From Prevotella sp. (GTDB lineage Bacteria; Bacteroidota; Bacteroidia; Bacteroidales; Bacteroidaceae), in NCBI GenBank assembly GCA_017389705.1, contig JAFPEE010000114.1, positions 1 to 48,334 of the forward strand: 48,334 bases of DNA, in the 5' to 3' direction. Numbering within the stretch: position 1 is the stretch's first letter; each line of letters starts with the position of its first letter. The position numbers were made by a program, and so were the translations under genes. A model generated the notes under the pieces. The model was not told the DNA's origin and did not search any database. It was given only the letters and a program-made list of their open reading frames with translations. Below are positions 21,388 to 47,777 of the stretch, one piece after another.

Positions 21388-22761
21388 CTATACCTTTATG
21401 TGTATTATCTCTGACCAGCGCGTTGTGTAACATGGGCTTTTGTGGTCGTGCTTGATGGCATTGGCGAAGACATCGACTTTGACCTTCGGTCGAGCCTGCT
21501 TACGCTCGGCAGAGTTCAAGTCTGCTTGGCTCTGCTCTCGCTCAATCGCAGCCTTGACCATTGCCTCCTTACTTATGTACTGCTGAGAACCTAACACTAT
21601 CGTCTCACTACCATGAAGCCTGTTGATGCGGTCAACGATCTCGTCGAGCCGGCGCATCTTTTGGAACTGCTCGGCATTGATGTCGAAGAGATCCTGCTGA
21701 ATGGGGGAGTCGGGGCCGATGCCCATGACAATGACACCTGCTTTCTTGTACTGGTAGCCCTGACGGTAGATTCTCTGAAGGACATTGTTAGCTGCCTGGA
21801 CGATGGTGATGGTGGAGTTGGATGGTGTGACAAGACGCTGCTCCTGGAAGTTCCAGTACTGGGCGAGATCCTCTCTGAACATGTTGGTGTTAAGGAATAC
21901 GCCTATGGATGACGCAACAGTATTCTGCTGACGCAGCTTCTCAGCACACCGAGCCGCATAGTTTGAGACATGAGTCCGCAGGCCCTCCAAGTCTGGTATC
22001 ATGCCGTTAAAGCTCCGACTGGTACAGATGCTTTTCTTCTTGGCGAGTTCCTCGTTCGGTACGACATCCTCACCATTCAATTCCTGCCACGTGCGTACTA
22101 TATTAATATTATTGAACGTCAGTCGCACCCAGTCCTTATGGTGCTTGGCAAAGTCGAGTGCCGTCCTGCAACCGAGAGCTTGAAGCTTGGCGGCATAACG
22201 ACGGCCAATGCCCCAGACATCCTCTATCGGACACCATTCAAGTGCCTTCTCGCGCTTGTAGTCCGTGTCGATCATGCAGCAGTGCTTATACACCTCGTAT
22301 TTCTTCGCCAGTTTCGAGGCTATCTTGGCAAGCGTCTTGTTGGGAGCCAGACCAATACTGATGGGCATTCCCACTTCTCGCTTGATACGTTTGTGGAGGT
22401 TCTCGCCCCACTGTTGGAGGTGGTCAAGCTCTATGCCGTCGAGGTACATGAAGCATTCATCGATGGAGTATCTGAAGTAGGCGGGAGTCTCTTTGCTGAT
22501 GATACTGACCACCCGTCCTGTCAGTTCTCCATAGAGTTCGTAATTCGAAGAAAAGACTGCTATCTTCTGATTCGGGAAGAGTTGGGCCAACTGGAAATAG
22601 GGTGTTCCTTCCTTGATTCCCATCGCTTTGGCCTCATTGGAACGGGCTACTACGCAGCCATCATTGTTCGAGAGAACCACACAGGGCACTCCCGTCAGAT
22701 CGGGTCTGAAAACCCTCTCGCAACTCACGTAGCAATTGTCCAAATCGGCTATCCCGTACAT
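21388..22761 (-). CDS. umuC: Y-family DNA polymerase, UmuC-like
   Basis: A 457-residue translesion polymerase. It begins MYGIADLDNCYVSCERVF, with the catalytic DxD in DLDN, then VVLSNNDGCVVARS and YSIDECFM (second catalytic acidic pair, near residue 105), and a helix-hairpin-helix region DVWGIGRRYAAKLQALG. It forms an operon with umuD three bases upstream. The last 50 residues contain a stretch (EREQSQADLNSAERKQARPK) encoded by a dispersed hairpin element (HP1) that recurs elsewhere in the window, suggesting a tail modified by element insertion. Confidence 0.9.
   Translation of the reverse strand: MYGIADLDNCYVSCERVFRPDLTGVPCVVLSNNDGCVVARSNEAKAMGIKEGTPYFQLAQLFPNQKIAVFSSNYELYGELTGRVVSIISKETPAYFRYSIDECFMYLDGIELDHLQQWGENLHKRIKREVGMPISIGLAPNKTLAKIASKLAKKYEVYKHCCMIDTDYKREKALEWCPIEDVWGIGRRYAAKLQALGCRTALDFAKHHKDWVRLTFNNINIVRTWQELNGEDVVPNEELAKKKSICTSRSFNGMIPDLEGLRTHVSNYAARCAEKLRQQNTVASSIGVFLNTNMFREDLAQYWNFQEQRLVTPSNSTITIVQAANNVLQRIYRQGYQYKKAGVIVMGIGPDSPIQQDLFDINAEQFQKMRRLDEIVDRINRLHGSETIVLGSQQYISKEAMVKAAIEREQSQADLNSAERKQARPKVKVDVFANAIKHDHKSPCYTTRWSEIIHIKV
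21481..21554 (+). repeat. Hairpin element HP1, inside umuC
   Basis: Read on the plus strand: GACC-TTC-GGTC (21481-21491), a constant GCTCGG, a variable hairpin GCAGAG-T-TCAAG / CTTGG-CTCTGC (21509-21535), then CTCGCTCAATCGCAGCC. The same layout occurs at 26329-26397 (inverted), 29991-30066, 30511-30570 and 47701-47777. Confidence 0.65.
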
Positions 22762-22764
22762 ACT

Positions 22765-23202
22765 CTAAACTGTTTCAAATGTGCGAATCAGATGAATAAC
22801 CGTTCCCCATACCTTGAAATTATCAGGATCGTCAATCTTGAAGACTGGGAAATCATCGTTGGCAGGTCGTAGCTCTATATAGCCTTCGTCCCGATGGGTC
22901 AGGTCGAGATACTTCATCGTGAAGTCACCATTCCACCATGCCAGCACAATGGAGCCGTCATGTGGTTCTACAGCCCTGTCGATAATCACTCTGTCGCCAT
23001 CGAAGATTCCTGCATCCTTCATCGAGTTACCGCTCACATCGCCATAGAACGAAGCTTCCGGGTGCTTGATGTAATCCCGGTTGAAGTCCAGCGTTTCGTG
23101 CATGTAATCGTCAGCCGGTGACGGGAATCCTGCCACAACACTGGCATGTTCGAGCTCCAGCTTGGTCTCAAAAACACCTCTTATGATCTTAATGTTACCC
23201 AT
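22765..23202 (-). CDS. umuD: UmuD-like S24/LexA-family auto-peptidase
   Basis: A 145-residue protein. The Ala-Gly cleavage site is in SVVAGFPSPA (residues about 21-30), the nucleophile Ser in YGDVSGNSMKDAGIFDGD (near residue 60) and the Lys general base in GDFTMKYLDL (near residue 97). After self-cleavage UmuD' would join UmuC to form a mutagenic polymerase. It is three bases upstream of umuC with its own promoter; no LexA site can be recognised by eye. Confidence 0.9.
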   Translation of the reverse strand: MGNIKIIRGVFETKLELEHASVVAGFPSPADDYMHETLDFNRDYIKHPEASFYGDVSGNSMKDAGIFDGDRVIIDRAVEPHDGSIVLAWWNGDFTMKYLDLTHRDEGYIELRPANDDFPVFKIDDPDNFKVWGTVIHLIRTFETV

Positions 23203-23233
23203 ATTAAATCCTAATAATCCTCAAAACTTTTTG

Positions 23234-23271
23234 CAAATATAGTGATTTTAAGGCAATTCTTGTTACTTTTG
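23234..23271. promoter_or_regulatory. Divergent promoters of umuDC and the Sel1-repeat gene
   Basis: Minus-strand TATATTTG at 23234-23241 (for umuD) and plus-strand TACTTTTG at 23264-23271 (22 bases before the Sel1-repeat start). Confidence 0.6.
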
Positions 23272-23292
23272 TACTCATATTTAAATGTATTT

Positions 23293-23937
23293 ATGCCAAA
23301 AGAGCGAAACAAAGCAGACGATTACCGCGAAAAGGCTTATGCGGGCGATACCAAGGCGATGAATAACCTGGGTGTCTGCTACGAGCGTGGCACCGGAGTG
23401 AAGGTCAATCTGGAGATGGCCTTCGACTGGTATATGAAAGCCGCTCAGCTCGATGATGTCTATGGTTGCTTTAACGTTGGCGAGTGTTACTATCACGGCA
23501 AAGGCGTGGAACCAGACCCCGTACTGGCTTTTGAGTGGTATATGAAAGCAGCCAACCAAGGAGATACGCAGTCGCAGGTGAACGTGGCTAACGCCTACTA
23601 CCTCGGCAATGGTGTCGAGATGGATCACCACAAGGCTTTCCTCTGGTATCGCGAGGCCGCTTTCCAAGGACATGTCCTCTCACAGAAGAACTGTGGCGCT
23701 GCCTATTGGAATGGTGACGGTGTGGAGAAGAACCTCGAAGAATGCGTCTTCTGGTATGAGTTAGCTGCTAATGGTGGCGATGCCCAGGCACAGTTTGCCA
23801 CCGGCTGGTTCCTGATGACAGGCACAGGCGTTCCCAAAGATGAGCGTAAGGGCTTGAAGTGGATTCACAAATCTACGTTCCAAGGCTATCAGCCTGCCAT
23901 TGACTATTGCAAGGAACATAATTTGAAATGGTATTGA
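23293..23937 (+). CDS. Sel1-like repeat (tetratricopeptide-type) protein
   Basis: A 214-residue protein made of about five to six Sel1 repeats of roughly 36 residues, each with the pattern A.xNLG.xYxxGxGVxxxxxxAxxWYxKAA: NNLGVCYERGTGVKVN, FNVGECYYHGKGVEPD, VNVANAYYLGNGVEMD, KNCGAAYWNGDGVEKN. No signal peptide is seen; ATG 23293 (MPKERNKADD) is used because earlier in-frame starts lie across the promoter. It is probably a cytoplasmic scaffold; the partner is unknown. Confidence 0.82.
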   Translation: MPKERNKADDYREKAYAGDTKAMNNLGVCYERGTGVKVNLEMAFDWYMKAAQLDDVYGCFNVGECYYHGKGVEPDPVLAFEWYMKAANQGDTQSQVNVANAYYLGNGVEMDHHKAFLWYREAAFQGHVLSQKNCGAAYWNGDGVEKNLEECVFWYELAANGGDAQAQFATGWFLMTGTGVPKDERKGLKWIHKSTFQGYQPAIDYCKEHNLKWY

Positions 23938-23966
23938 GCGTATGATAATCCAAAAATAGAGATACA

Positions 23967-24890
23967 ATGAAGAAGTTTTTATTAGCATTTACAATGTTGC
24001 TGTCAATAGGAGCTTGTACTAACAAGCCTGTTACGGCAGTTGAAGACAACGAAGAAAGTAGTGAAGTGGCCTTTGAGGTAGCCAAGAACTACTTCTTTAA
24101 GAATGACCAGGTGATTCCTGAATACCCGAAAATCACAACGGAAGAGGTGTTTAACAAGCTCTTCGGTATGGCTACGACGATGGGCGAGAACGGCAAGCCA
24201 ACTGCTATCGATTTCACCAAACAGTTTGTGTTGGCCATCGTTCTGCCAGCAACAGACTTCGCAACGGAAATCAATCCTGTGAAGGTGGAAGAAAAGGGCG
24301 ACTCGCTCCTCTATACTTATGATGTGAAGACTGGCGAGAAACAGTCATTCACCATTCAGCCCGTTTCCATCATCATTCTCGACAAGCAATACGAGAACAA
24401 AAGAGTTGTGCTTGTCAATGAGCGGGAAACAAACTATTTCCCCGCCATCGACCGTTATCTGACTGATTCTATCGGTAGCCAGTATGCCAAGGGTGAACAT
24501 TGCGTACCCATCCACAGCATCGTGAGAGTTGACGAGCGTCATTCAGAGGACATCCTTGTATGGGGTGATTTCTGGGTCTTCAACTACAATCAGGTGGGTG
24601 ACACCCTGAAATGCGTCTCTGGCAGCAGCCATCCTGGACTGATGCACATCCGACAGACAGAAAAGGGCTTTGAAGTGACTGCCTTCGACCAGGTAGAGGA
24701 TGGTTCCAGATACTTGCCGACGGCTAAGAAGATCTTCGGTGACAAGTTCGATGTCTTTAAAACCATCAACAGCGATGAGAAGGCTCGTGAAAGATTGAGA
24801 GCCGAAGGATTGGCCACTTATGCCAAGAGGAATGGTCTCGCAGTGACTCTGTATCAGGACTATGGCTGGCCAGCCAAGAAATTGAGATAA
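23967..24890 (+). CDS. Hypothetical lipoprotein
   Basis: A 307-residue lipoprotein (lipobox SIGAC). I do not recognise the family. The first half is acidic with alternating strands; the second has SEDILVWGDFWVFNYNQVGDT and GSSHPGLMHIRQTEKGFEV, resembling an NTF2-like or lipocalin-like beta segment. A helical tail ends in YQDYGWPAKKLR. It starts 29 bases after the Sel1-repeat gene, so co-transcription is possible. Confidence 0.65.
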   Translation: MKKFLLAFTMLLSIGACTNKPVTAVEDNEESSEVAFEVAKNYFFKNDQVIPEYPKITTEEVFNKLFGMATTMGENGKPTAIDFTKQFVLAIVLPATDFATEINPVKVEEKGDSLLYTYDVKTGEKQSFTIQPVSIIILDKQYENKRVVLVNERETNYFPAIDRYLTDSIGSQYAKGEHCVPIHSIVRVDERHSEDILVWGDFWVFNYNQVGDTLKCVSGSSHPGLMHIRQTEKGFEVTAFDQVEDGSRYLPTAKKIFGDKFDVFKTINSDEKARERLRAEGLATYAKRNGLAVTLYQDYGWPAKKLR

Positions 24891-24905
24891 ACAACATGTA
24901 GTAGA

Positions 24906-25148
24906 ATGAACGTAGAAGAGTTTCGTGAATACTGCCTGTCGTTGCCTGATGTGACCGAGGCAACACCTTTCGAGAAATTCTCGAAGGGAAAGTTTACGAT
25001 ACTAGTCTTCTATGTCAATAGCCACATGTTTTGCTACTTCAATGTCGATGACTTCTCAAACATCACCATCAAATGTGAATCGTCTGAGATACCAGCGGCG
25101 AGTGGACGAGCGGTTGTCATTATACCGCGAACTGCCCATCCGTCATAA
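24906..25148 (+). pseudogene. Truncated MmcQ/YjbR-family gene joined to foreign sequence
   Basis: The first 55-60 codons (MNVEEFREYCLSLPDVTEAT, then PFEKFSKGKFTILVFYVNS and TIKCESSEIPA) match the start of MmcQ/YjbR proteins, normally about 110-120 residues. Sequence identity then switches at about 25090 to the 3' part of a DUF5131 gene in another frame, and the ORF ends shortly after. The C-terminal half of the domain is missing, so the gene is broken. Confidence 0.65.
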
Positions 25149-25431
25149 GTCAATCATCTGTGAACCGTTACTGGAGAGCATTGTCTTTCATGATGATCTT
25201 GGCTCTTGGTGTGAACAAGTGACTGTTGGTGGTGAGTCTGGCTCGGAGGCCCGTGTCTGTGATTATGCCTGGGTGCTTGGCATCCGTGAGCAATGCATCG
25301 CAGCCAACGTGCCGTTCCACTTTAAACAGACGGGTGCCCACTTCCGCAAGGATGGCCGTCTGTACAATATCCCACGAAACCAGCAGATGAAGCAAGCACA
25401 TAAGGCAGGAATAGACTATGCATACAAGTAA
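25090..25431 (+). pseudogene. 3' fragment of a DUF5131 (phage Gp37/Gp68-like) gene
   Basis: From about 25090 the frame ending at 25431 reads RRVDERLSLYRELPIRHKS, then ICEPLLESI, WCEQVTVGGESGSEARVCDY and FHFKQTGAHF. These are the conserved C-terminal blocks of DUF5131, a radical-SAM-related family with phage-linked members. The N-terminal half with the Cys motif is absent. The fragment directly abuts the MmcQ fragment on the same strand, indicating one deletion that removed the 3' end of one gene and the 5' end of the next. Confidence 0.65.
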
Positions 25432-25473
25432 TACTACCACTCATCACATATTTGTGCAGTTTATCCCAGATAT

Positions 25474-25504
25474 TTTGTAAATCTCGCAACTATCCATACC
25501 TTTG
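25474..25504 (+). promoter_or_regulatory. Promoter of the acetyltransferase gene
   Basis: TTTG at 25474-25477 and TACCTTTG at 25497-25504, 19 bases apart; the ATG follows at 25534. Confidence 0.65.
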
Positions 25505-25533
25505 CATCGTCAAAAGATAAAGAGAATAGAAAA

Positions 25534-26490
25534 ATGAATATCAGATTAGAACAACCACAAGACTATCGCGAAGTAGAAAACCTGACTCGCGATGCATTCT
25601 GGAACGTCTATCGTCCAGGATGCACAGAGCATTATGTGCTCAATCAGTATAGAACCAATCCCGACTTCATCCCTATTCTGGATTTCGTGATGGAGGAGGA
25701 CAGAAAGATTATCGGCCATATGATGTTCTCTAAAGCCGAGATCATACTTGACGATGGAAATAGCTTCCCGTCTTGGACTTTTGGCCCTATCACCATTCAT
25801 CCAGACTACAAACGTAAAGGCTATGGTTTAAAGTTGCTCCAATATGCGTTGGAGAAAGCTAAAGAGATGGGAATTGGACTGATTCAGATGGAGGGAAATA
25901 TCGAATTCTACAAGCACACAGGCTTCGACCTCGCCAGCAAGATGAAGATTCACTATCATGCAGAGCCGAGGGAGTCGGAAGTGCCGTATTTCCTTGCCCA
26001 AGAGTTGATTCCTGGCTATTGGGGCAACCGCGAGGGTACCTATTGCCCGCCAAAGGGCTACTTCGTTGCAGATGAGAATCCAGAAGCTTTCGAGGCATAT
26101 GAAGCTACTTTCTCCAAGAAAGAAATGGAATTCCAAGAAGGGCAACTGCCCCAATTCTGCCAGAGTTGTGGCATGCCACTCACTAAAAATGAAGACTGTG
26201 GCACAAACCCAGATGGTAGCATCAATTTTGACTATTGTAAGTACTGCTATGCTGACGGCAAGTTCTCGCAGGAATGCACGATGGATGAGATGATTGAGCA
26301 TTGCTCGCAATTCGTCGACGAAGTGAACGGACGGAGCAGTGAGAGCCATCCGAGCTCGCTCGAAGATGGCCGAGTCGTGACGGACGAAGGCGAAGCCAAT
26401 AAACAAATGCCCAAGCCAATGACGAAGGAAGAGTACAAGCAGATGATGAGAGGCTTCTTCCCAATGCTTAAAAGATGGAGAAAGGAATAA
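25534..26490 (+). CDS. GNAT acetyltransferase fused to a C-terminal zinc ribbon
   Basis: A 318-residue two-domain protein. Residues 1-150 form a GNAT N-acetyltransferase, with the acetyl-CoA motif HPDYKRKGYGLKLL and the strand-helix IQMEGNIEFYKHTGF. Residues about 205-260 form a putative zinc ribbon with CQSCGMPL and YCKYCYADG, the pattern of the zinc_ribbon_6 family. Residues about 266-288 are encoded by hairpin element HP2 and look like an in-frame insertion before the conserved tail MTKEEYKQMMRGFFP. Its end overlaps the next gene by 16 bases. The acceptor is unknown. Confidence 0.82.
   Translation: MNIRLEQPQDYREVENLTRDAFWNVYRPGCTEHYVLNQYRTNPDFIPILDFVMEEDRKIIGHMMFSKAEIILDDGNSFPSWTFGPITIHPDYKRKGYGLKLLQYALEKAKEMGIGLIQMEGNIEFYKHTGFDLASKMKIHYHAEPRESEVPYFLAQELIPGYWGNREGTYCPPKGYFVADENPEAFEAYEATFSKKEMEFQEGQLPQFCQSCGMPLTKNEDCGTNPDGSINFDYCKYCYADGKFSQECTMDEMIEHCSQFVDEVNGRSSESHPSSLEDGRVVTDEGEANKQMPKPMTKEEYKQMMRGFFPMLKRWRKE
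26329..26397 (-). repeat. Hairpin element HP2, in frame inside the acetyltransferase gene
   Basis: The inverted orientation relative to HP1. Stem GCCATC (26345-26350) pairs with GATGGC (26365-26370) around a CGAGCTCG core; it is followed by CCGAGT and GGACGAAGG, matching the CCGAGC...ACCGAAGG block of HP1 read on the minus strand. The encoded peptide is hydrophilic and in frame. Confidence 0.5.
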
Positions 26491-27002
26491 CCGAAGATAG
26501 ATTCAGACAGACGTTCAGCGAGGGTGGCGCTCAGGAGATTTACCAAGAAGTAAAGGCCAGTGGTGATTTCCTCGGCTTTGCTCGTCAGTATGCATTTAGT
26601 GAGGATTATCTCGTAGCAAGGAGTGCTTTGTGGGGACTTACCAAGGCCAGCAAAGAAGAATTGTCTCAGCTACAGGTGATACAGACCGAGTTTATCAATC
26701 AGGCAATGCAGACAGGGAATTCATCCGTCAGGCGATTGTCGCTGAACATCGTTGAACGTTTGGAGATGAAAGAAGATGATCTGCGGACGGACTTCCTTGA
26801 TTTCTGCTTCGAGCGCATGATAGATGTCGAGGAGTTCCCTGGCATTCAATCCGTCTGCATGAAACTCGCCTTCCGCATGTGCAAATTCTATCCTGAACTG
26901 ATGGACGAACTGAAGCGCACCCTTGAAACGATGGAGATAGACTATTACAAGCCTGCCGTGAAATGCGCCCGAAGCAGGATTCTAAGTGGTAAGCTCAAAT
27001 AG
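26475..27002 (+). CDS. Hypothetical HEAT-repeat-like protein
   Basis: A 175-residue, all-helical, charged protein with regularly spaced helix pairs (ARSALWGLTKASKEELSQLQ, SVRRLSLNIVERLEMKEDD, KLAFRMCKFYPELMDELKR), suggesting a small HEAT or armadillo-like solenoid. The family is not recognised. The start overlaps the acetyltransferase gene by 16 bases, so the two are probably translated from one mRNA. Confidence 0.65.
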   Translation: MEKGITEDRFRQTFSEGGAQEIYQEVKASGDFLGFARQYAFSEDYLVARSALWGLTKASKEELSQLQVIQTEFINQAMQTGNSSVRRLSLNIVERLEMKEDDLRTDFLDFCFERMIDVEEFPGIQSVCMKLAFRMCKFYPELMDELKRTLETMEIDYYKPAVKCARSRILSGKLK

Positions 27003-27069
27003 GTAATTGACAGTGCAACTTTTACGATGATAAACACGTCTAACAGATGAATTCAGTAATAGAGAGCAC

Positions 27070-27189
27070 ATGAAGACTTTAGGACACATCATCTGGATTT
27101 TCTTCGGTGGGCTGCACATTGCCCTTATGATTTGGCTGCTCATATCCTTTGGCAGCTACCTGTACTCTCTGCAGACATACATTATCTAG
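27070..27189 (+). pseudogene. 39-residue YccF::DUF4112 fusion left by an internal deletion
   Basis: The ORF begins MKTLGHIIWIFFGGLHIAL, almost the first 19 residues of the YccF gene at 38842. It continues MIWLLISFGSYLYSL, the C-terminal helix of the DUF4112 gene at 39214. It also shares ACGTCTAACAGAT upstream with the intact pair. The join falls on ATCGCCCT, present in both intact genes at 38890-38897 and 39634-39641. The result stays in frame and would encode one membrane helix. It could be expressed, but is most simply a deleted duplicate. Confidence 0.75.
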
Positions 27190-27250
27190 CGGATTCTTAT
27201 ACCGCTACCGAATCAAATGCAAAAAAACACAAATAATCGTGTGTAAGTGG

Positions 27251-27280
27251 TTGTTAAGAGCTGTTTTTTGAGTATTTTTG
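27251..27280 (+). promoter_or_regulatory. Promoter of the PHP-domain gene
   Basis: TTG at 27251-27253 and TATTTTTG at 27273-27280; the ATG follows at 27301. Confidence 0.6.
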
Positions 27281-27300
27281 CAGGGAAATTGTAATCGAAG

Positions 27301-28026
27301 ATGAGAAAAGTATTAATCGACGCACATACGCATACAGTGGCATCTGGCCATGCCTACAGCAGTCTGCAGGAGATGGCAAAGGCTGCTGCTGACAAAGGCT
27401 TAGAGGTGCTGGGCATCACAGAACATGGCCCTAAAGTTCCAGGAACCTGTCCGCAGTTGTATTTTAAGAATATGTTTGTGGTGCCACGCCAGATGTACGG
27501 CATCCGTCTGCTGATGGGCTGTGAAATGAATATACTCGACTGCCAGGGCACACTCGACCTGACGGAAGATTATATCGACTACCTCGACCTAAAGATTGCA
27601 GGTATTCATGGAGCATGGTACCAAGGCGGCACGAAGGAGGAGAACACTGAGGGCATGATTAACATTATACGACACCCGAAGATGCACATCATCAGTCATC
27701 CAGGCGACGGTTCTGCAGAGCTGGACTTCGAGAAGCTGGTGCTGGCTGCCAAGGAAGCCCATACACTACTGGAGATTAACAACCACTCGTTGGCTCCACA
27801 GCGTAAGAAGTCGGTAGCACGTGAGAACAATCTGGAGCTGCTGCGACTCTGCAAGACGCATGACGTACCCACGATTTTAGGTAGCGATGCACACATTACT
27901 TTCCAGATTGCCGACTACGAACGACTGTATCCACTATTAGAAGAGACCGACTTCCCTGATGAGCTGATTATGAACTACTGGCCAGACAAGTTCTTTGACT
28001 ATCTGGGTATCAACCGCGAAATATGA
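27301..28026 (+). CDS. PHP-domain phosphoesterase, YcdX-like
   Basis: A 241-residue metal-dependent PHP protein. Ligand motifs are DAHTHTVASGHAYS (residues 7-20), ITEHGPKVPGT, a Glu in GCEMNILD, IISHPGD and LGSDAHITFQ near the C-terminus. This length and motif order fit the YcdX group of standalone phosphatases rather than histidinol phosphatase or DNA polymerase PHP domains. Its stop overlaps the start of the next gene (ATGATGA), indicating an operon. Confidence 0.87.
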   Translation: MRKVLIDAHTHTVASGHAYSSLQEMAKAAADKGLEVLGITEHGPKVPGTCPQLYFKNMFVVPRQMYGIRLLMGCEMNILDCQGTLDLTEDYIDYLDLKIAGIHGAWYQGGTKEENTEGMINIIRHPKMHIISHPGDGSAELDFEKLVLAAKEAHTLLEINNHSLAPQRKKSVARENNLELLRLCKTHDVPTILGSDAHITFQIADYERLYPLLEETDFPDELIMNYWPDKFFDYLGINREI

Positions 28027-28619: not shown

Positions 28620-28700
28620 TAATTATCTCACAGAGCTTCTGGTATAGTATGTTTTCACTATACTGCTCAGAATCGACGGAATTTATGAGTTCACGAAGTG

Positions 28701-29303: not shown

Positions 29304-29321
29304 ATATAATATTTTGGAGTG

Positions 29322-29379: not shown

Positions 29380-29415
29380 CCGTTGAATATTCAATACTAC
29401 TAAACAAATACGAAT

Positions 29416-29931
29416 ATGAAAGTTCTGATTTTACAAGGCTCACCACGAGCAAACGGCAACACCGCATGGATGGCGGAAGAGTACAAAAAGGCTGCTGAAG
29501 CAGCAGGTCATGAAGTGACGCTGGTCAACGTAGCAAAGAAGAAGATTGCAGGCTGTCTGGCTTGCGAATACTGTCACAATAAAGGTAATGGTGCCTGCAT
29601 TCAGAAGGACGACATGCAGGAACTGTACCCGCTGATGGCTGAAGCCGAGGCTTTGGTATTGGCTGCGTCCATCTATTACTTCACGCTCTGTGCCCAGATT
29701 CAGGCACCCATTCAGCGCATGTACTGCGTGAATGCTCCAGCAAAGGTGAAGAAGATGGCCCTGCTGATGTCATCATACTCTCCTGGTGTCTACGATGGTG
29801 CCAATGCTGAGTATCATGATATCTGCAACTACTGGGGTGTCGAGGATATGGGTATTGTCACCGCCAAGGTTGACGAGCAGAAGACTGAGGAAACCAAGCA
29901 GAAGGTCATTGAACTGGCCGGTAAACTCTAA
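29416..29931 (+). CDS. NAD(P)H-dependent FMN reductase, flavodoxin-fold
   Basis: A 171-residue flavoprotein. The FMN phosphate loop is in ILQGSPRANGNTAWMA (residues 4-19); GCLACEYCHNKGNGACIQKDDM has the Cys-rich pattern of the iron-sulfur-flavoprotein-like or NADPH-dependent FMN reductase group. APIQRMYC and SYSPGVYDG follow. It probably reduces quinones or related electrophiles. Cys motifs could hold a cluster in the Isf subgroup, but its spacing is not decisive. Confidence 0.82.
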   Translation: MKVLILQGSPRANGNTAWMAEEYKKAAEAAGHEVTLVNVAKKKIAGCLACEYCHNKGNGACIQKDDMQELYPLMAEAEALVLAASIYYFTLCAQIQAPIQRMYCVNAPAKVKKMALLMSSYSPGVYDGANAEYHDICNYWGVEDMGIVTAKVDEQKTEETKQKVIELAGKL

Positions 29932-29990: not shown

Positions 29991-30066
29991 GACCTTTGGT
30001 CGAGACTGCTTTGCTTGGAAATCTGAACGTGTTCTGATTTTTCTCACTTAATCGCAGCCTTCTTTG
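29991..30066 (+). repeat. Hairpin element HP3, intergenic
   Basis: GACC-TTT-GGTC (29991-30001), then CTTGG, a hairpin AAATC-t-GAAC-gt-GTTC-t-GATTT (30019-30040), then TTCTCACTTAATCGCAGCC. The first and last blocks are nearly identical to HP1 in umuC, while the hairpin stem sequence differs completely yet still pairs. Confidence 0.65.
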
Positions 30067-30084
30067 GGATTGTATGTAGAATGG

Positions 30085-30474
30085 CTATGCCATGAAGTGC
30101 TTGATATGGCGGGCTGATGTTACCTTAGCATCGTAGATGACAGTCACTTCGCGGGTGCGGGGATTCCACTTGGTGTCCATCACGCCCTTCATGTGTTCGA
30201 CCTTGGCAACCACCTTACGATGGGAGTCATGACGGCTTACCTTGAAGGTGCAGGTATTCACGTCAGGACGATAGGCGTAGTCTTTGTGATAGCTATTGTG
30301 CGAAAGAGCCCTGTCCACCTTATCGAAGTGCGAGCCACCTCTGTCATTATTCACTACGACAACAGTTGTCTTCTTGTCGTCTTTGTCGTTGTGATGCTTA
30401 TTACCTGCCATTGCCGGCATTGTTGTGATTGCCATCATCATCATGGCTGCGATCACCTTATTAATCTTCTTCAT
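30085..30474 (-). CDS. Secreted small protein with an HMA-like domain lacking the CxxC motif
   Basis: A 129-residue exported protein (signal peptide up to MPAMAG), followed by a His/Lys/Asp-rich linker and a C-terminal beta-alpha-beta-beta-alpha-beta-like domain. That domain reads NTCTFKVSRHDSHRKVVAKV, then HMKGVMDTKWNPRTREVTVI and YDAKVTSARHI. The pattern matches heavy-metal-associated domains, but the metal-binding CxxC position holds HDSH. A role in periplasmic metal binding is inferred only. The gene is flanked by two hairpin elements, HP3 at its 3' side and HP4 at its 5' side. Confidence 0.65.
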   Translation of the reverse strand: MKKINKVIAAMMMMAITTMPAMAGNKHHNDKDDKKTTVVVVNNDRGGSHFDKVDRALSHNSYHKDYAYRPDVNTCTFKVSRHDSHRKVVAKVEHMKGVMDTKWNPRTREVTVIYDAKVTSARHIKHFMA

Positions 30475-30510
30475 AACTTTGTCTCCTATTCTTTAAATGG
30501 TTTAACTTCG

Positions 30511-30570
30511 TTTGACTTTCTTCTTCGTTCGGCATAGCTCAAGTAAACTTGACTCTGCCCTCACTCATTT
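30511..30570 (+). repeat. Hairpin element HP4, upstream of the HMA-like gene
   Basis: CGTTCGG, then hairpin GGCATAG-c-TCAAG-taaa-CTTGA-CTCTGCC (30531-30559), then CTCACTCATTT. Its stem closely resembles that of HP1, while its left block (GACTTTC) is degenerate. The rest of the gap 30475-30774 shows nothing but A+T-rich sequence and a short inverted AGGGGACTTTCC/GGAAATCTCC-like patch near 30655-30690. Confidence 0.55.
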
Positions 30571-30774
30571 AAAAGTTCGACATTTGTTTCATAATCACGG
30601 TGCAAAGTACGGCATTTTTCACGGCATTTCAAAAGGAATATACCTATTTGGGGTAGGGGACTTTCCTATTCTTGCATAGGGAAATCTCCTCAATTATCAG
30701 TCACCCGTCATCAAGAGAACGAAAGTTTTTATGCTAAAATCGTTAAATCACGCATTATTCCACATTTTTTTCGC

Positions 30775-41225: not shown

Positions 41226-41227
41226 GA

Positions 41228-41650
41228 TTAATCTGTTACCACTTCATTAAAATGCTCCTTTCCCCAGACACCAAAAAGTGCCTTCTTGTAGAAACGAAAA
41301 ATTCGCCGTACCTTTGCGGGGTGATTTGGAAATCTTCGCTCGAAGAGCAAAAAGTATTTTGCAATCGCACTCGCAGCTGTCGCCTCCAACAGATGCCACT
41401 TGGGGCGACCGAAGTCATAAGATTCTTTGTCGAGAATAATGCGGTTAGAAACAAAGTCAAAGTGATAGTAGCCTCCAGGATCTGCATTCTCGTTGATGCT
41501 CAGTCCGCAACTCGTATGTTTGCAGATTTGAGCATCCCCGTTAATCGGGGAAGCGGCGTAAGCCAAAGGGGCATATATCTTGAACCCACTTGGCTTACGC
41601 CGAAGTCCCGTTTGGCGGGACATCTCAAATATTTCTATTTGCTGAATCAT
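41228..41650 (-). CDS. Hypothetical protein with hairpin-rich 5' half
   Basis: A 140-codon ORF between the CDF transporter and pectinesterase genes, two bases from the latter. The second half (FGRPKWHLLEATAASAIAKY, FPNHPAKVRRIFRFYKKALF) looks coding, but I do not recognise the family. The first half (residues about 10-45) is encoded by a region with three stem-loops including a perfect 13-bp stem, which suggests an inserted repeat or a structured leader. Start and expression are uncertain. Confidence 0.5.
   Translation of the reverse strand: MIQQIEIFEMSRQTGLRRKPSGFKIYAPLAYAASPINGDAQICKHTSCGLSINENADPGGYYHFDFVSNRIILDKESYDFGRPKWHLLEATAASAIAKYFLLFERRFPNHPAKVRRIFRFYKKALFGVWGKEHFNEVVTD
41536..41620. 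repeat. Three adjacent stem-loops including a 13-bp perfect inverted repeat
   Basis: CCCCG/CGGGG at 41536-41550; CGGCGTAAGCCAA at 41554-41566 pairing with TTGGCTTACGCCG at 41590-41602; TCCCG/CGGGA at 41606-41620. The three stems are packed within 85 bases of an apparent coding region. Confidence 0.6.
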
Positions 41651-41651
41651 G

Positions 41652-42755
41652 TTATTCGCTATAATTATGGTCTATCACTATACTGATTTCTTCGCCAGGA
41701 ACAAGTGGTTGCAGTTCTTCCACCAGACGAGCGGAAAGGGCTGTGTCATCGTGTACGGAAATATCAGGGACAACGTCCACGGAAATCCGATGTTCTTCCT
41801 CAAAATAGTAGAAACCATGAACCTGTAATATCTCCTTGTGCTTGGCCAATGTCTGCATAACGGTACTTTGCAGCTGGCTTCGTTTGTTCTCACCCGTAGC
41901 TATAGCATAGACACCAACGGTCATAATGATGCCATGCTTCTCAAACATCTGTTCAGAGATACGTCGCGTCAGACCATGTATCTGGTGGGCATCCATCGTG
42001 TCATAGACGTTGATGTGCAGCGAACCTATCAAGACGCTAGGACCATAGTTATGTAGGATGATGTCGAACACACCATGAACACCATCAAAAGCCCCGACCT
42101 CCTGCTTAATGTCGTGAACCAGTTCCTGAGAGATCCGTGCGCCAAGAAGTTCGTTGATAGGAGAGGCCAGCATTTCGATACCAGCCTTGATGATGACCAG
42201 CGAGATGAGTGCGCCCAGGATGCCATCGAGCGAAACGTTCCAGAGGAGCATGATACCAGCCGATACGAGTGTGGCCAGTGTGATGACGGCATCGAAGAGC
42301 GCATCGGAACCTGATGCTATCAAGGCATCGCTCTTCAATTGCTGTCCCTGCTTTTTTACGAACTGCCCCAAAATCAGCTTTACCACGATGGCAACGACAA
42401 TGACCACCAGCGTGACAGTGGTATATTCCGGCTCGGTAGGATTAAATATCTTCTTAACCGATTCAATCAATGACGTGATACCAGCCGACAGTACCAGCAC
42501 GGCAATGATGATGGCGCTGAAATACTCCACACGTCCGAAGCCAAAGGGATGTTCGCGGTCGGCAGGTCGCTCAGACAATTTGGTACCGATAATAGTGATA
42601 ACACTCGACAGCGCATCGCTTAGGTTGTTTACGGCATCCATCACGATGGCTACACTACTGGCAAGGATGCCTACAGCCGCCTTGAAAGCAGCCAAAAGCA
42701 CATTGGCAATAATTCCAATGATGCTGGTACGGATAATCATCTGTGAACGATTCAT
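41652..42755 (-). CDS. Cation diffusion facilitator (CDF) transporter
   Basis: A 367-residue CDF-family exporter with six helices. ATG 42755 (MNRSQMIIRTSIIGIIANVL) is used because earlier in-frame starts lie at the promoter. Metal-site motifs are VMDAVNNLSDALSSV in helix 2 (D-x3-N-x-D) and SDALIASGSDALFDAV in helix 5. The C-terminal cytoplasmic domain includes DIILHNYGPSVLIGSLHINV. It exports a divalent metal such as zinc, iron or manganese; the Asn in site A argues against a clean zinc assignment. Confidence 0.86.
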   Translation of the reverse strand: MNRSQMIIRTSIIGIIANVLLAAFKAAVGILASSVAIVMDAVNNLSDALSSVITIIGTKLSERPADREHPFGFGRVEYFSAIIIAVLVLSAGITSLIESVKKIFNPTEPEYTTVTLVVIVVAIVVKLILGQFVKKQGQQLKSDALIASGSDALFDAVITLATLVSAGIMLLWNVSLDGILGALISLVIIKAGIEMLASPINELLGARISQELVHDIKQEVGAFDGVHGVFDIILHNYGPSVLIGSLHINVYDTMDAHQIHGLTRRISEQMFEKHGIIMTVGVYAIATGENKRSQLQSTVMQTLAKHKEILQVHGFYYFEEEHRISVDVVPDISVHDDTALSARLVEELQPLVPGEEISIVIDHNYSE

Positions 42756-42806
42756 TTTGCTGTAATAAAAGACCTTTTCTTCATAAACTATCCTAATTCT
42801 AAGGTG

Positions 42807-42814
42807 CAAATTTA
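42807..42814 (-). promoter_or_regulatory. -7 box of the CDF gene
   Basis: Minus-strand TAAATTTG, 52 bases before the ATG. Confidence 0.55.
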
Positions 42815-42884
42815 CAAAATCTTCTGAAAAATCACTAACATTGCCCTGTTAATACAACAAAGTTTAAGATATGACTCACGTACT

Positions 42885-43050
42885 TGTTCCCAAGGATATC
42901 GTGGTATGACGTTCTAAGTGGGGAAAAGACCCGTGCAAACAGGGATTGAGACGGCATGTAACAGGGAGAGAGGCGGCATCTAACCAGATTCGGGCGGCCG
43001 CCCTAATTCATGCGGGCGGCCGCCCTTATATATTGGAGCACCCGCCCTTA
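42885..43050 (-). repeat. Dispersed inverted repeat, right arm (IR-R), 166 bp
   Basis: The reverse complement of 18601-18766 with scattered differences, same length. The central palindrome block TAATTCATGC between GGGCGGCCGCCC arms reads in the same direction on the plus strand in both arms, so the core is inverted relative to the rest of the repeat. Its outer end abuts the vanX duplicate. Confidence 0.8.
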
Positions 43051-43115
43051 ATACTAAGGAAAGTACAGGGGGCAGCGCAACTGACGATGCCAGTCAGTTT
43101 GTAACCATTACCGAC

Positions 43116-43763
43116 GTGGTGTCCGATGTAATTCTGGAGATCCGTTACTTCGGCACATACAACTTTGTGGGAACCCGCATCGACGGCTACGAGGAGCCGA
43201 CGGCACTACTCACTCGTCAGGCTGCTGACAGTCTGAAGGCCGTCAGCGACGACGTGAAAGCCCAAGGCTATCGCCTGAAGATCTACGATGCCTACCTTCC
43301 GCAGAAAGGCGTTGACCACTTTGTGCGCTGGGCAGAGGACATCGCCGACACACTGATGAAGCCTTACTTCTATCCAGATCTCGACAAGAGTGTACTCTTT
43401 CCTCAGGAATACATCTGCCTGAAGAGCGGACACACACGTGGCTCTACCATTGACCTGACGCTGTTCGACATGAACACCGAAAAGGAACTCGACATGGGCG
43501 GCGCCTTCGACTGGTTCGGTCCTGAGAGCCATCCCGACTTCTGTGGCAATCCTGAGACGGGTGAGCACACGGGCGACAACAGCAAGAGTCCTGCCAATCC
43601 GAAACGTAGCATCACCCCCGAGCAGTTCAAGAACCGTATGATCTTGCGTCAGGCCATGCTCCGTCACGGATTCAAGCCTTTCGACACCGAGTGGTGGCAC
43701 TTCACGCTGAAGGACGAACCCTTCCCAGATACATATTTCACCTTCCCCGTCAAACAACTATGA
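43116..43763 (+). pseudogene. VanX-like dipeptidase copy 2, leaderless and with an active-site Arg-to-Leu change
   Basis: A 215-residue ORF almost identical to the mature part of copy 1 at 31762-32556. The coding match extends upstream without an ATG to about 43070 (SATDDASQFVTITDVV), then switches to repeat IR-R, so signal peptide and start are missing; the first in-frame start is a GTG at 43116. Zinc motifs SGHTRGSTIDLTLFD and EWWHF are intact, but DAYRP has become DAYLP at 43296-43298. That Arg stabilises the transition state in VanX. The copy is likely inactive. Confidence 0.75.
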
Positions 43764-43907
43764 ATATGGAAAATTTTGAAGAGATATTGATAAAGGACTT
43801 AAAAGCATATAGAATCCTTTTATCTGTTGCCGTGCACTCCTTGATGTGCATGACCGTGCATGCACAACTGCTGCATACAACAGCCCGTCCTCATATATAT
43901 TTCTACA

Positions 43908-45104
43908 TCACTCTTTATACTCCAAGGCAAGTCCACCTTCGCTGGTTTCCTTATAGAGCGAGGGTAGGTCGTGGCCTGTGCGCTTCATCACCTCCACCAC
44001 ATGGTCGAATGAAATGCGGTGGTTGCCGTCGGAAGCGATGGCATATAAGGCGGCATCGGTAGCCCGTGCAGCTGCAAAGGCATTACGCTCGATACAGGGA
44101 ATCTGAACCAATCCGCAGATAGGGTCGCAGGTCATACCAAGATGATGCTCCAGTCCCATCTCCGCAGCGTATTCTATCTGGTTGGGACTTCCTCCCCATA
44201 GTTGGCAACCGGCAGCCGCCGCCATAGCACAGGCTACACCTACTTCACCTTGACATCCCACATCTGCTCCACTGATACTGGCATTGTGCTTAACCACGTT
44301 GCCAAAGAGTCCTGCTGTAGCAAGGGCTCTCAGAACGCGCTGCTCGGAGAATTCCAAATTGCGGTATGCCCCATAGAGAATGGCAGGAAGAACACCACAA
44401 CTGCCACAGGTGGGAGCCGTCACAATCGTACCTCCACAGGCATTCTCTTCAATAACTGCCAATGCATAGGAATAGAGTAGGGCACTGTAATGAGCCGTTT
44501 CATTGTATCCTTGAGCTTTCACATAATAAGATACAGCCTTGCGCGACAAGCCTAACGGACCAGGCAGGGCACCTTCTGCATCAATACCTCGTTCTGCGGC
44601 TTTTACCATCGTATCAAAGACTTCCTTCAGAAAATCCCAGATTTCCGGTCCTTCACACTGTTCCACATATTCCCAGTATCCATGACCTGTTTTCTTGCAC
44701 CATGCCATGATGTCCTTGATCTTATGCATCTCATAGACATCGCCGCCAGCAGCGAACATGTCCCCTTCGGCCTTACCCTCCGAGAGTGCACCACCGCCTA
44801 CGCTATATACCGTCCACTCGTCGCCTCCGTCAGCTTTGAACTTCATGCCGTTAGGGTGGTACGGCAGGAAGATCTTGGGTTGCCAAACGATGCTCACAGG
44901 GGCTATCTTACTAAGTACGTCGATGATGGCGACATCGGTCATGTGACCTTTTCCTGTAGCAGCGAGGCTGCCGTAAAGGGTTACTTCGAAACTCTTGGCC
45001 TCGGGATGGCGCTTTGCATAAATACGTGCAGCATTGTCAGGCCCCATTGTATGGCTGCTTGACGGGCCTTTTCCAATACGGAATAGTTCTCTAAGTGATT
45101 TCAT
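43908..45104 (-). CDS. sdaA: L-serine ammonia-lyase (serine dehydratase)
   Basis: A 398-residue single-chain [4Fe-4S] serine dehydratase that converts L-serine to pyruvate and ammonia. It opens with ELFRIGKGPSSSHTMGPDNA (beta-subunit-like substrate loop). Cluster-region Cys are in TAPTCGSCGVLPA, SGADVGCQGEVGVACAM and TCDPICGLVQIPCIERNA. Prevotella uses amino-acid fermentation, which suits this enzyme. It is a complete gene next to broken ones. Confidence 0.9.
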   Translation of the reverse strand: MKSLRELFRIGKGPSSSHTMGPDNAARIYAKRHPEAKSFEVTLYGSLAATGKGHMTDVAIIDVLSKIAPVSIVWQPKIFLPYHPNGMKFKADGGDEWTVYSVGGGALSEGKAEGDMFAAGGDVYEMHKIKDIMAWCKKTGHGYWEYVEQCEGPEIWDFLKEVFDTMVKAAERGIDAEGALPGPLGLSRKAVSYYVKAQGYNETAHYSALLYSYALAVIEENACGGTIVTAPTCGSCGVLPAILYGAYRNLEFSEQRVLRALATAGLFGNVVKHNASISGADVGCQGEVGVACAMAAAAGCQLWGGSPNQIEYAAEMGLEHHLGMTCDPICGLVQIPCIERNAFAAARATDAALYAIASDGNHRISFDHVVEVMKRTGHDLPSLYKETSEGGLALEYKE

Positions 45105-45120
45105 ATTTTAATTCGTTTTG

Positions 45121-45300
45121 TTAATTTCCCCAACCTGGTGGCAAGACAATATTCTCCACGTTGTGCGCCTCGGCAAACAGCGGAGCGATTTCTTCAATAC
45201 TCACGGATAATGTCACCGCCGCCTTCACGAAAGCCCTTGAAAATCTCCTTTTCCGATAGCTTCAAATGATAGTTCACACTAATTTTGGCTATATTAATTC
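45121..45300 (-). pseudogene. Two short gene fragments upstream of sdaA
   Basis: One frame (about 45210-45300) reads ISVNYHLKLSEKEIFKGFRE then GGGDIIREY-stop; a second (45121-45213) reads SIEEIAPLFAEAHNVENIVL then PPGWGN-stop. Both look like coding C-termini without heads. Families not recognised. They lie between sdaA and ldhA and may be remnants of a deleted gene pair. Confidence 0.35.
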
Positions 45301-45340
45301 ATTTTTGTCATGTGATACCCCATACGCTTCAGCTGTTTAT

Positions 45341-46339
45341 TCATTTCACCTCATTTACCAGCTCCTTGCCCTCGCTGAAGTCGAGGATGTTCTGGAGGGT
45401 GGTGAGGGCGATGTTATGCACGGCCTCGCGGGTGAAGAAGGCCTGATGGGAGGTGACGATGACGTTGGGCATCATCAGCAGCAGGGCCAGCTTGTCGTCA
45501 TCAATCATCTTATCGGAGCGGTCCTCGTAGAAGTAGTTGGCTTCCTCCTCATACACGTCGAGGGCGGCAGAACCTACCTGATGGGAGCGCAGGCCGTCGA
45601 TAAGGTCTGCAGTCTTGATGAGCTTGCCGCGACCGGTGTTGATAATCATTACGCCATACTTCATCTTCGTGATGGAGTCGCTGTTGATGATGAACTGCGT
45701 CTCCTTGGTCAGCGGACAGTGCAGCGAGATGATGTCCGACTGCTCGTAGAGTTCGTCGAGCGACACAATCTTTACCTGATGCTCCTTGGCAAAGGCTTCG
45801 TCGGGATAGAGGTCGTAGGCCAGCACATTCATGCCGAAACCACGCAGGATCTTCACCAGTTCCTTGGCAATCTTTCCCATGCCGATAAGTCCTACGGTCT
45901 TGCCGTACATGTCGAAACCAAGGAGTCCACCCAAACGGAAGTTGCCTTCGCGGGTGCGATAAACAGAGCGGTATACCTTGCGGTTCAGGGCCAGCATCAG
46001 CGTGACGGCATACTCTGCTACTGCATGAGGCGAGTAGGCTGGCACACGGACTACGCGGATGCCAAACTGCTTGGCAGCCTGTACGTCGACATTGTTGAAA
46101 CCGGCACAGCGCAGGGCTATCAGTTTCACGCCATAGCCCGCCATACGCTCAATGACACGGGCATCGCACTCTGCATTGACGAAGATACACACAGCGTCAG
46201 CCCCCTGAGTCAGCGAAACGGTATTCAGGCTGAGACGCTCTTTGTAGTACTGAATGTCGAAACCGAAGTTCTCATTCACCTTGGCGAAGTTCTCGCGGTC
46301 GTAGCTCTTCGCATCGAAAAACGCTATTCTTATTGCCAT
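45341..46339 (-). CDS. ldhA: D-lactate dehydrogenase (D-2-hydroxyacid dehydrogenase family)
   Basis: A 332-residue NAD-dependent enzyme that reduces pyruvate to D-lactate. ATG 46339 (MAIRIAFFDAKSYDRENFAK) is used because the longer ORF crosses the promoter. Substrate Arg lies in IALRCAGFNNVDV, the NAD fold in VGLIGMGKIAKELVKIL, NTGRGKLI carries the second Arg, and the catalytic His is in VIVTSHQAFFTREAV. The stop overlaps an ATG of a 16-codon truncated ORF. A deleted copy is at 48033-48325. Confidence 0.87.
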   Translation of the reverse strand: MAIRIAFFDAKSYDRENFAKVNENFGFDIQYYKERLSLNTVSLTQGADAVCIFVNAECDARVIERMAGYGVKLIALRCAGFNNVDVQAAKQFGIRVVRVPAYSPHAVAEYAVTLMLALNRKVYRSVYRTREGNFRLGGLLGFDMYGKTVGLIGMGKIAKELVKILRGFGMNVLAYDLYPDEAFAKEHQVKIVSLDELYEQSDIISLHCPLTKETQFIINSDSITKMKYGVMIINTGRGKLIKTADLIDGLRSHQVGSAALDVYEEEANYFYEDRSDKMIDDDKLALLLMMPNVIVTSHQAFFTREAVHNIALTTLQNILDFSEGKELVNEVK

Positions 46340-46366
46340 AATCTTAAATGATGTTGTTTTTATTTG

Positions 46367-46374
46367 CAAATATA
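46367..46374 (-). promoter_or_regulatory. -7 box of ldhA
   Basis: Minus-strand TATATTTG, 28 bases before the ATG at 46339. Confidence 0.55.
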
Positions 46375-46539
46375 CGCATTTTGGGCGAGATTTATTAATT
46401 TTGCACAGAACTTTTACGATTTCTTTAGACATGGTCGAGGGAAGAGTTCATTTCTCACATTGAGAACGTCAAGGGTGAGAATCTTAAAATGAAAGCAAGG
46501 GACGGCTGACAATAGAGTTGGCCGTTCCTCTTATTTCTA

Positions 46540-47058
46540 TCATTGGCCTTCCAGTTTCTTTAGTTTGTCCTCTAACTCCTTTATCTGGTCTTGATGAATG
46601 GCTTCGCGCAAATTTGATTTGGTTCTTTCTTCCAGTACTTTGAATACGTCGTTAAAGATGTCTTCATGATCAAATGCACCAACAGGAGCACTTGATAATC
46701 CAAACCACTCAGCCTTTGCAGCGTCATCCTGGCCTTTCACCTCCACAGGAGCATCTATCTCTACAAGAAATGCTACGGAAACCGTGCGACCTCTTGGGTC
46801 ACGATCGACTTTGGAGTAAACACCAAGCAGTGTTAAGTCCGAAAGATCAAGTTTTATGCCAGTCTCTTCTTCCAGTTCACGAACGGCACACTGCTCTATT
46901 GTCTCATCCATTTCCATGAACCCACCGGGAAATGCCCAATAGTCTTTGAATGGTTCACCGCCTCTTTGAATGAGTAGAATCTTTGGGAACTCCTCTTTAG
47001 TGATAACAACACCGTCAGCTGTCACTGCTGGTCTCGGATATTTGTATGTATATGCCAT
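46540..47058 (-). CDS. NUDIX hydrolase
   Basis: A 172-residue Nudix enzyme. The complete Nudix box G-x5-E-x7-REUxEExGU is in GGFMEMDETIEQCAVRELEE and ETGI near residues 45-68. It begins MAYTYKYPRPAVTADGVVI, typical of the ADP-ribose/NrtR-like or MutT-like group with a YxYPRPAV start. The last 25 residues are charged and coiled-coil-like (IKELEDKLKKLEGQ). The substrate is probably a nucleoside diphosphate derivative. Confidence 0.85.
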   Translation of the reverse strand: MAYTYKYPRPAVTADGVVITKEEFPKILLIQRGGEPFKDYWAFPGGFMEMDETIEQCAVRELEEETGIKLDLSDLTLLGVYSKVDRDPRGRTVSVAFLVEIDAPVEVKGQDDAAKAEWFGLSSAPVGAFDHEDIFNDVFKVLEERTKSNLREAIHQDQIKELEDKLKKLEGQ

Positions 47059-47071
47059 AATCGATAATGTA

Positions 47072-47293
47072 TTAATCCCAGCCTTCTTCGTCGTTGTTCT
47101 CCATATAGCGGCTCATGCCGTTGTCATCCATGTCATCCTCAGATGCAGGGTCAAAACCACGCATATTATCAGGATTGTGAGAAGGACGACCTTTCCCGTG
47201 AGGCGGGGGAGGGCCGCCAGGGTGCATACCATCAGGTGGTGGAGGTGGTCGATGACCATCAACCCTGCCACTATCGGGTGGTGGCGGTGGCAT
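47072..47293 (-). pseudogene. Pro/Gly-rich fragment of an unknown protein
   Basis: A 73-codon ORF with proline runs (PPPPPDSGRVDG, PPPPPDGMHPGG, PPPPHGKGRPSH) and an acidic tail (ASEDDMDDNGMSRYMENNDE). It has no signal or domain. The reading frame ends upstream at the point where an unrelated plus-strand gene fragment begins, so it is probably a C-terminal fragment whose head was lost. Confidence 0.45.
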
Positions 47294-47674
47294 GTCTATA
47301 AGATAGTAGAAGGTGAATCTGAAACCGTGCTGGATGCTGAAACGTCGGCCAAGATGCGTAGCGACATGGGCATTAAGCCTGAATATGACGAGAATGGTAA
47401 CATCCTGCCCATGATTCTTTGCAACGATGAGTTGGTAGCTTATCTGTCACACGATGAGGAATTTCCTGATGATGCTGAGTTTGCTTCACCCATCAAGTCT
47501 ATTGAACAGGTCTCACTCTTTGGCATCGACTTCATCAAGGCAGTCATCTCCATCTGCCATGAGCCGGAAGAAACCTATGTGCCTCTTTACTTCAAGAAGG
47601 AATATCTGCCCGATGCCAAGAAAGGTACTTTGGTAAGAGGATTCTTATGGATGCAAGGGAAAATTAAAGCTTAA
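47291..47674 (+). pseudogene. 3' fragment of an unrecognised gene
   Basis: The frame ending at 47674 reads HVYKIVEGESETVLDAETSA, PMILCNDELVAYLSHDEEF and IDFIKAVISICHEPEETYVP then LVRGFLWMQGKIKA. It is clearly coding but has no convincing start (an internal ATG at 47355 is possible) and begins where the proline-rich fragment ends head to head. Family not recognised. The join is a likely deletion or inversion scar. Confidence 0.45.
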
Positions 47675-47700
47675 AGCTAATATTTGGGGAGGTTGTACCA

Positions 47701-47777
47701 CGATTTACCTTTGGTGAATCGTTACTGCGCTCGGAAAACTTGAAACAAGTTTCATTTTTCTCTCACTTGTCCCACGA
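47701..47777 (+). repeat. Hairpin element HP5, at the end of a broken ORF
   Basis: CGATT-tACC-TTT-GGTg-AATCG (47701-47721), GCTCGG, hairpin TGAAAC-aa-GTTTCA (47741-47754) flanked by AAA and TTTT, then CTCTCACTTGTCCC. The layout matches HP1 and HP3. On the minus strand it encodes the last residues of the adjacent ORF, and a TAATTTTG motif follows at about 47797. Confidence 0.55.

Follow-up and report, generated by a model that had tools for sequence, protein, structure and literature searches.

A dispersed family of short palindromic elements in Prevotella with promoter-like, gene-end and in-frame variants

Rickettsia palindromic elements (RPEs) are described as about 150 bp long, palindromic, dispersed and present in frame in unrelated protein genes (PMC10969869), and the GTAG/CGTC repetitive extragenic palindromes (REPs) as single stem-loops of 20-40 bp ending in GTAG or CGTC, some of them inside genes, repair genes included, in several bacteria, with CGTC repeats occurring in Bacteroidetes too without a dedicated transposase (PMC3733652). 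BrickBuilt is a strictly intergenic 23-nt tandem repeat with a leader, a tail and IS5-family-like terminal repeats (PMC4596501), and PARCEL is palindromic DNA coding for a 25-residue motif found in tandem in particular open reading frames (ORFs; PMC2996958). Here we describe a family of short palindromic elements represented by five hairpins, HP1 to HP5, in a 48,334-nucleotide stretch of Prevotella sp. DNA (contig JAFPEE010000114.1 of assembly GCA_017389705.1; hereafter the window), which is one contig of a draft genome of 3.5 Mb in 265 contigs, 85.8% complete. The best overall explanation, which we hold to be probable, is a non-autonomous mobile palindromic family with members of about 70-90 bp, so far found almost only in one genus; it shows a shared layout, filled and empty orthologous loci, near-identical dispersed copies and tandem arrays. 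A literature search by titles and abstracts, which left preprints and most subscription papers outside, brought up no description of the family.

Each element is built from three pairing parts, P1 to P3. In the element's orientation, the P1 mini-hairpin (for example, GACCTTCGGTC) is followed by a 5′ arm, YACGCTCGG, P3, CTCRCTYA and the right end, with ACG(A)CTCGG and CTCRCT as conserved blocks and P3 as a variable two-part hairpin. Stem P2, 4-7 bp long and shifting in sequence between copies, is formed by the 5′ arm, which takes the forms GAAGGTAC, GAGCCTGC, GAAGTTGC and others, together with the right end, for which TCGTACCTTTG and TCGCAGCCTTG are examples. An earlier note on this DNA had seen one layout at all five sites, beginning with the mini-hairpin; both are present, although the mini-hairpin is just part of the larger layout, in which the segment following it pairs with the right end, and the copies fall into three variants, A, B and C, with different settings. 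Like REPs, the elements are short palindromes with changing stems, some of them in genes; they differ in being 70-90 bp long, in having three pairing parts and in having an end whose sequence varies together with that of the arm. CGTC is present only within variant C, near its ends (as in HP2), and this variant may be distantly linked to CGTC REPs. In insertion sequences of the IS200/IS605 type, a short internal guide segment pairs with the element end. The likeness seen here concerns this pairing, not the enzyme, the cleavage site or any rule of insertion.

Model R1 was built from 21 copies in the source genome (alignment A2), HP1 and HP3 to HP5 among them, and model R2, for variant C, from nine copies, HP2 itself included. 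Under R1, HP1 and HP3 to HP5 score 58.6-90.9 bits (E<=1.1e-10), whereas HP2, which belongs to a sister variant modelled separately, reaches only 15.5 bits (E 0.12); the R1 and R2 matches bear out the five hairpins, where the earlier note placed them, as one dispersed structured family. Its view that pairing is kept by compensatory change holds up as well, with covariation beyond both shuffled and slid controls. In A2, 87.2% of cells are paired, versus 66.1% after shuffling and 32-49% with partners slid, and double changes number 54 versus 23.4 in shuffles; for 59 distinct copies from the genus, the values are 93.6% paired and 150 double changes versus 41.1. RNAalifold recovered only five pairs from alignment A1 and the structure used later was drawn by hand from the sequences, so that P3 pairing counts lean towards the assumed structure; P2 counts, in alignments A3 and A4, are free of such lean since P2 is no part of R1. 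P2 alone is 87.5% paired across the genus (74 double changes versus 20.4) and 84.2% paired in 58 distinct rows from the source genome (69 versus 24.5), while in variant C, where two middle positions are mostly unpaired, pairing reaches 53.8% versus 34.5% (33 double changes versus 10.6). For A2 and for P2 across the genus, the number of pair types was no better than in shuffles (20 versus 19.2 in A2), being reached by 208 (A2) and 237 (genus P2) of 500 shuffles. One P2 position, usually central, is recurrently unpaired, in 35/57 and 34/57 rows. In seven copies the left flank differs from the right end; the arm fits the right end better in six of these, with one tie, indicating that it belongs with the element's own end.

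The pattern CTCGG-N15..45-CTCRCTYA gave 31 matches in the source genome, versus six for the reversed control pattern, and 19 of the 31 were full copies as judged by eye from their flanks. R1 found 77 matches there at E<=0.01 and 115 at E<=1, with 150 of 1000 candidates scored. As the earlier note had expected of a covariance search, many additional matches exist in other genomes: R1 (E<=0.01, 79 candidates scored per genome) matched 57 of 60 genus genomes, the source genome included, copy numbers over the 60 ranging from 0 to 79, and R2 (E<=0.001) matched 39 of the 60. A less sensitive scan of 296 genomes of the phylum (E<=1e-4, 16 candidates scored per genome) gave matches in three, namely the source genome, one sister genus and one other family. 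Recent spread is suggested by tandem arrays of the element and by near-identical copies in genome G049, which has 28 very similar copies across 20 loci amid short repeats of the TTCAATC/TTCAATTTT type. At loci L314-L333 (G049), L105/L078/L115 (G037) and L109/L112 (G040), copies are embedded in short tandem repeats with units near 7 bp in length (TTCAATC, GACCATT, CAATGTT), which may be either targets or by-products. Plasmid and phage records yielded one weak match each: to a variant B blend in the Phocaeicola plasmid record OY726012.1 (19027-19070; 86.4% over 57%), and to variant C in an unannotated faecal phage record, MT836274.1 (734-811; 75.6% over 90% of the query).

Variant C often lies within genes. 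The GNAT/Zn-ribbon ORF at 25534-26490 (Pfam) contains HP2 as an in-frame insertion of 72 bp, or 24 codons, at residues 265-288. By record title, the relatives closest to this gene come mostly from rumen metagenome-assembled genomes of Prevotella or Prevotellaceae. Among the best 80 of 415 relatives, it is absent from all 78 that could be judged, the locus ending before the site in L176 and being deleted across it in L213; L195 and L202 carry the same 24-residue peptide 40 residues earlier, with DNA 98.6% identical over 74 bp. Of 54 C copies examined, drawn mostly from the best-scoring ones, 14 lie in genes with coding signal on both sides, repeats of one locus being left out; 13 of the 14 are antisense, and 12 of those 13 read the same frame, RSSESH..GRVVTDEG. 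Pfam families were assigned to eight of ten host ORFs scanned and include GH97, HsdR, an ABC exporter, an ABC-F-like protein, an acyl-ACP thioesterase and a sigma-54 activator. In the alignment of HsdR with PDB 3h1t, 4-217 and 243-601 are matched and a single chain residue separates the two blocks, so that residues 218-242 represent the insert. One PDB alignment of the ABC exporter shows it to be about 27 residues longer at its insert; for the ABC-F protein and the thioesterase, PDB alignments gave no clear picture of the insert. PARCEL is likewise palindromic and coding; the inserts here are single and lie in unrelated proteins. Coding selection on the element itself was considered and rejected: by an approximate home-made shuffle, the mean number of open frames of six is 4.00 versus 3.71 shuffled for C and 3.02 versus 2.66 for B, so that composition accounts for most of the openness. 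Variant A, with 2.43 open frames versus 1.52, is more open than its shuffles, though it is rarely in genes.

The right end of variant B is GCAGCCTT or similar; in 62 copies without TAnnTTTG, TTTG occurs at 19-20 nt in 12. Fourteen of 54 B copies fall inside gene calls (made, as for all orientation counts, with a simple home-made gene caller), and the right neighbour within 100 nt of the other 40 is in opposite orientation in 18 and in the same direction in four, so that B tends to follow gene ends. HP1, antisense to umuC (21388-22761, minus strand), lengthens the protein in frame by about 25 residues (403-427) close to its C-terminus; among 30 UmuC relatives (29 loci plus L106) the insert is lacking in 28, whole in L106 and present as a shorter piece in L242. 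The UmuC of G020 (L248) contains another copy, in opposite orientation, in frame in the middle of the protein. UmuC also has a second variable stretch, near residue 110, in which other species (L238, L249, L260, L261) carry unrelated inserts in frame, those of L260 and L261 apparently derived from short tandem repeats. The earlier note had placed HP1 and HP2 inside ORFs, HP2 in frame, and had likened their behaviour to that of RPEs; both are in frame and, with orthologues free of the inserts, the comparison stands. As in RPEs, the elements are palindromic, dispersed and in frame in unrelated genes (GNAT and UmuC at two sites each, HsdR); they differ in the size of their inserts (about 72-75 bp versus about 150 bp), in phylum and in having a variant with putative promoters, and the likeness is one of behaviour.

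Variant A ends in TAnnTTTG, with TTTG 19-20 nt upstream in 36 of 43 copies (31 of them at 20 nt; shuffled controls gave a mean of 1.3 and a maximum of 6). The sigma-ABfr consensus has TTTG near -33 and TAnnTTTG near -7 (PMC7366714), and the variant A boxes fit this layout as putative promoters. Only two of 49 A copies are in genes; the gene downstream within 100 nt of the other 47 lies in the same direction in 34 and in the opposite one in four. Downstream genes include valS, rsmG, pheT, secA, ysxC, holA, dxs, a YifB-like gene, pdxB and cobJ, and all ten downstream proteins scanned were named by NCBIfam, the locus-truncated products of secA and pdxB scoring below the cut-off. Of 50 copies, 38 also have a -7-like box to the left of P1, versus 6 of 50 in a control stretch, and left flanks resemble the right ends of their own copies at 6.33 of 9, versus 5.57 when shuffled among copies, the observed value being reached in 0/1000 shuffles (99 copies used, 9 dropped, duplicates removed). 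In locus L030, two A elements stand back to back (1352-1432, minus strand, and 1478-1568, plus strand) between divergent genes, each facing one. BrickBuilt too is a Bacteroidota element found between genes and has promoter activity; the promoter-like boxes here are read from sequence, and the 23-nt tandem repeat, strictly intergenic location and IS5-like ends are BrickBuilt's alone.

Occupancy of orthologous promoters is patchy. An R1 element lies upstream of valS in three of 30 loci compared from 51 matching genomes (the source genome, G007 and G055; 27 without) and upstream of secA in two of 30 compared from 53 (the source genome and G014; 28 without). In the 230 nt before the start, the 27 element-free valS loci have one TAnnTTTG in 23 cases, two in two and none in two; the 28 element-free secA loci have one in 16, two in one and none in five, the start motif being missed in six. 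At valS of the source genome, TACCTTTG is found on both sides of the element, and in the closest secA match, G007 (94%), the site is empty and the box stands 43 nt before the start, as does the right-end box in the source genome. Empty orthologous sites are available for the GNAT, UmuC and HsdR (versus PDB 3h1t) insertions and for the valS and secA promoters.

Variant A adjoins a -7-like box and has TTTG in P3 and a TAnnTTTG right end at promoter spacing, so that a gene receiving it could keep a promoter; variant A may itself start transcription. Such boxes are mostly missing from B and C, with B at or inside gene ends and C often in genes, as about 23-25 codons in frame. We suggest that the elements may be moved in trans by some enzyme, recognised as folded single-stranded DNA, and that copies would persist where harm is small, the promoter being restored, the frame kept or a gene end occupied. 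More speculatively, and at low confidence, variant A could be promoter-seeking: it would insert, single-stranded and folded, where the -7 region of an open promoter is melted, and its 5′ arm would serve as a guide by pairing with its own new end. It would rebuild a complete promoter, so that insertion before essential genes (valS, pheT, secA, holA, ysxC) would be tolerated. Having lost the promoter, and with a different end, this scaffold would have become the in-frame protein-inserting element.

Several observations weigh against the main interpretation as a mobile family. The P3 TTTG usually lies in TAAATTTG, which itself matches the -7 consensus and makes the transcription start ambiguous, and the secA copy of the source genome has no -7 box left of P1, so that simple box duplication is not general. 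Among 43 C copies read in coding orientation, 35 have AAC on the left; the right flank, AAY or similar, is often unequal to it, so there is no clean target duplication. Both C and R1 copies are under-represented in genes, the same in-gene test giving 11 of 110 for R1 and 144 of 300 for random stretches against 14 of 54 for C. The copies behind the layout, flank, in-gene, orientation and promoter-box counts are mostly best-scoring ones, a non-random sample. Finally, no mobilising enzyme was found by a PF01797 survey or in the ORF groups inspected near copies.

The last point bears on the identity of the mover. That these are repeats of the REP or bacterial interspersed mosaic element type, moved by a host REP-associated tyrosine transposase (RAYT, a Y1 HUH transposase), seems rather improbable to us. 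The mismatched hairpin and the arm pairing with the end do recall the ends of IS200/IS605 elements, and REPs (PMC3733652); moreover, the source genome has three Y1_Tnp genes (G000:C197:48223-48582, C202:597-827 and C91:14621-14848), the one on contig C91 about 0.7 kb from an element copy. A GTAG-type RAYT gene is flanked by its repeats, whereas a pattern search found none of these flanked by copies and no copy near the other two. The presence of PF01797, which may miss diverged enzymes, does not track copy number. Of the 60 genus genomes, 35 have it; G016 combines three Y1 genes with zero copies, and in G032, G035 and G027 (97%, 94% and 79% complete) it was not found despite 78, 52 and 74 R1 copies. 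We give an equally small chance to a miniature inverted-repeat transposable element (MITE) of a conventional DD(E/D) insertion sequence with terminal inverted repeats. Short length, absence of genes, ends that pair via P2 and direct repeats around variant A and HP5 would suit such an element, but P2 has just 4-7 bp and varies in sequence per copy, unlike fixed terminal repeats. Nor, in a search for a gene recurring beside copies, was a transposase recognised by eye in the 22 largest related-ORF groups, several of which are one locus sampled twice or orthologous loci; insertion sequences were not searched by their ends. Least credible are immobile regulatory RNA structures or terminators fixed by descent, for which strong covariation of RNA-like stems and a regular position near genes might speak, and which are opposed by insertions that lie in frame in proteins not related to one another and at two positions of a single gene, by patchy presence at orthologous promoters, by near-identical dispersed copies and by the lack of an Rfam match (none in three element loci at E<=0.5).

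The copies in the window are listed below. HP3 sits between an FMN reductase-like gene (29416-29931, plus strand; Pfam) and a small minus-strand gene (30085-30474), upstream of which lies HP4, with the least typical right end of the five. HP5 is bordered by a 9-bp direct repeat, CCACGATTT (47698-47706 and 47772-47780). The sole Rfam match in the window is a cobalamin riboswitch (4999-5203), at the very start of which TTTG is followed after 19 nt by TACCTTTG; this stretch, in the riboswitch promoter region, is possibly a decayed copy of variant A. The earlier note's interpretation is, overall, partly supported: its suggestion that right ends carry promoter or terminator parts agrees with the data for promoters, with no evidence for terminators, though no terminator test was run, and its HP5 as the end of a broken ORF fails, HP5 starting 27 nt past the stop of ORF 46970-47674.

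Table 1. Copies of the palindromic element in the window and their model matches.
Feature	Coordinates	Strand	Model match
HP1, variant B	21481..21555	+	R1 90.9 bits at 21483-21562
HP2, variant C	26326..26397	-	R2 104.2 bits at 26324-26402 (HP2 in R2 training set)
HP3, variant B	29991..30066	+	R1 58.6 bits at 29993-30068
HP4, atypical right end, unclassed	30505..30585	+	R1 62.4 bits
HP5, 9-bp direct repeat at flanks	47698..47780	+	R1 61.1 bits at 47708-47787
Variant A 3′ part	5006..5051	+	weak R1 match, 21.6 bits, E 0.0066

RPEs (PMC10969869), REPs within genes (PMC3733652) and promoter-bearing MITEs (PMC4596501) are already known. Related copies of the present family add peptides to proteins, as Rickettsia RPEs do and as REPs do in several further bacteria (PMC3733652). 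What appears from the literature searched to be new is the family itself, its location at -7 boxes where it seems to rebuild the promoter, and the use of one scaffold in promoter, gene-end and in-frame settings. Since copies in the source genome immediately precede valS, rsmG, pheT, secA, ysxC, holA and dxs, core genes of a rumen Prevotella-type bacterium may use promoters supplied by a mobile repeat. Recognition of the family would help to annotate promoters, as well as unusual 24-residue inserts in proteins of Prevotella, and it offers a single system for two questions, how short palindromes without an enzyme of their own move and why their hosts tolerate them.

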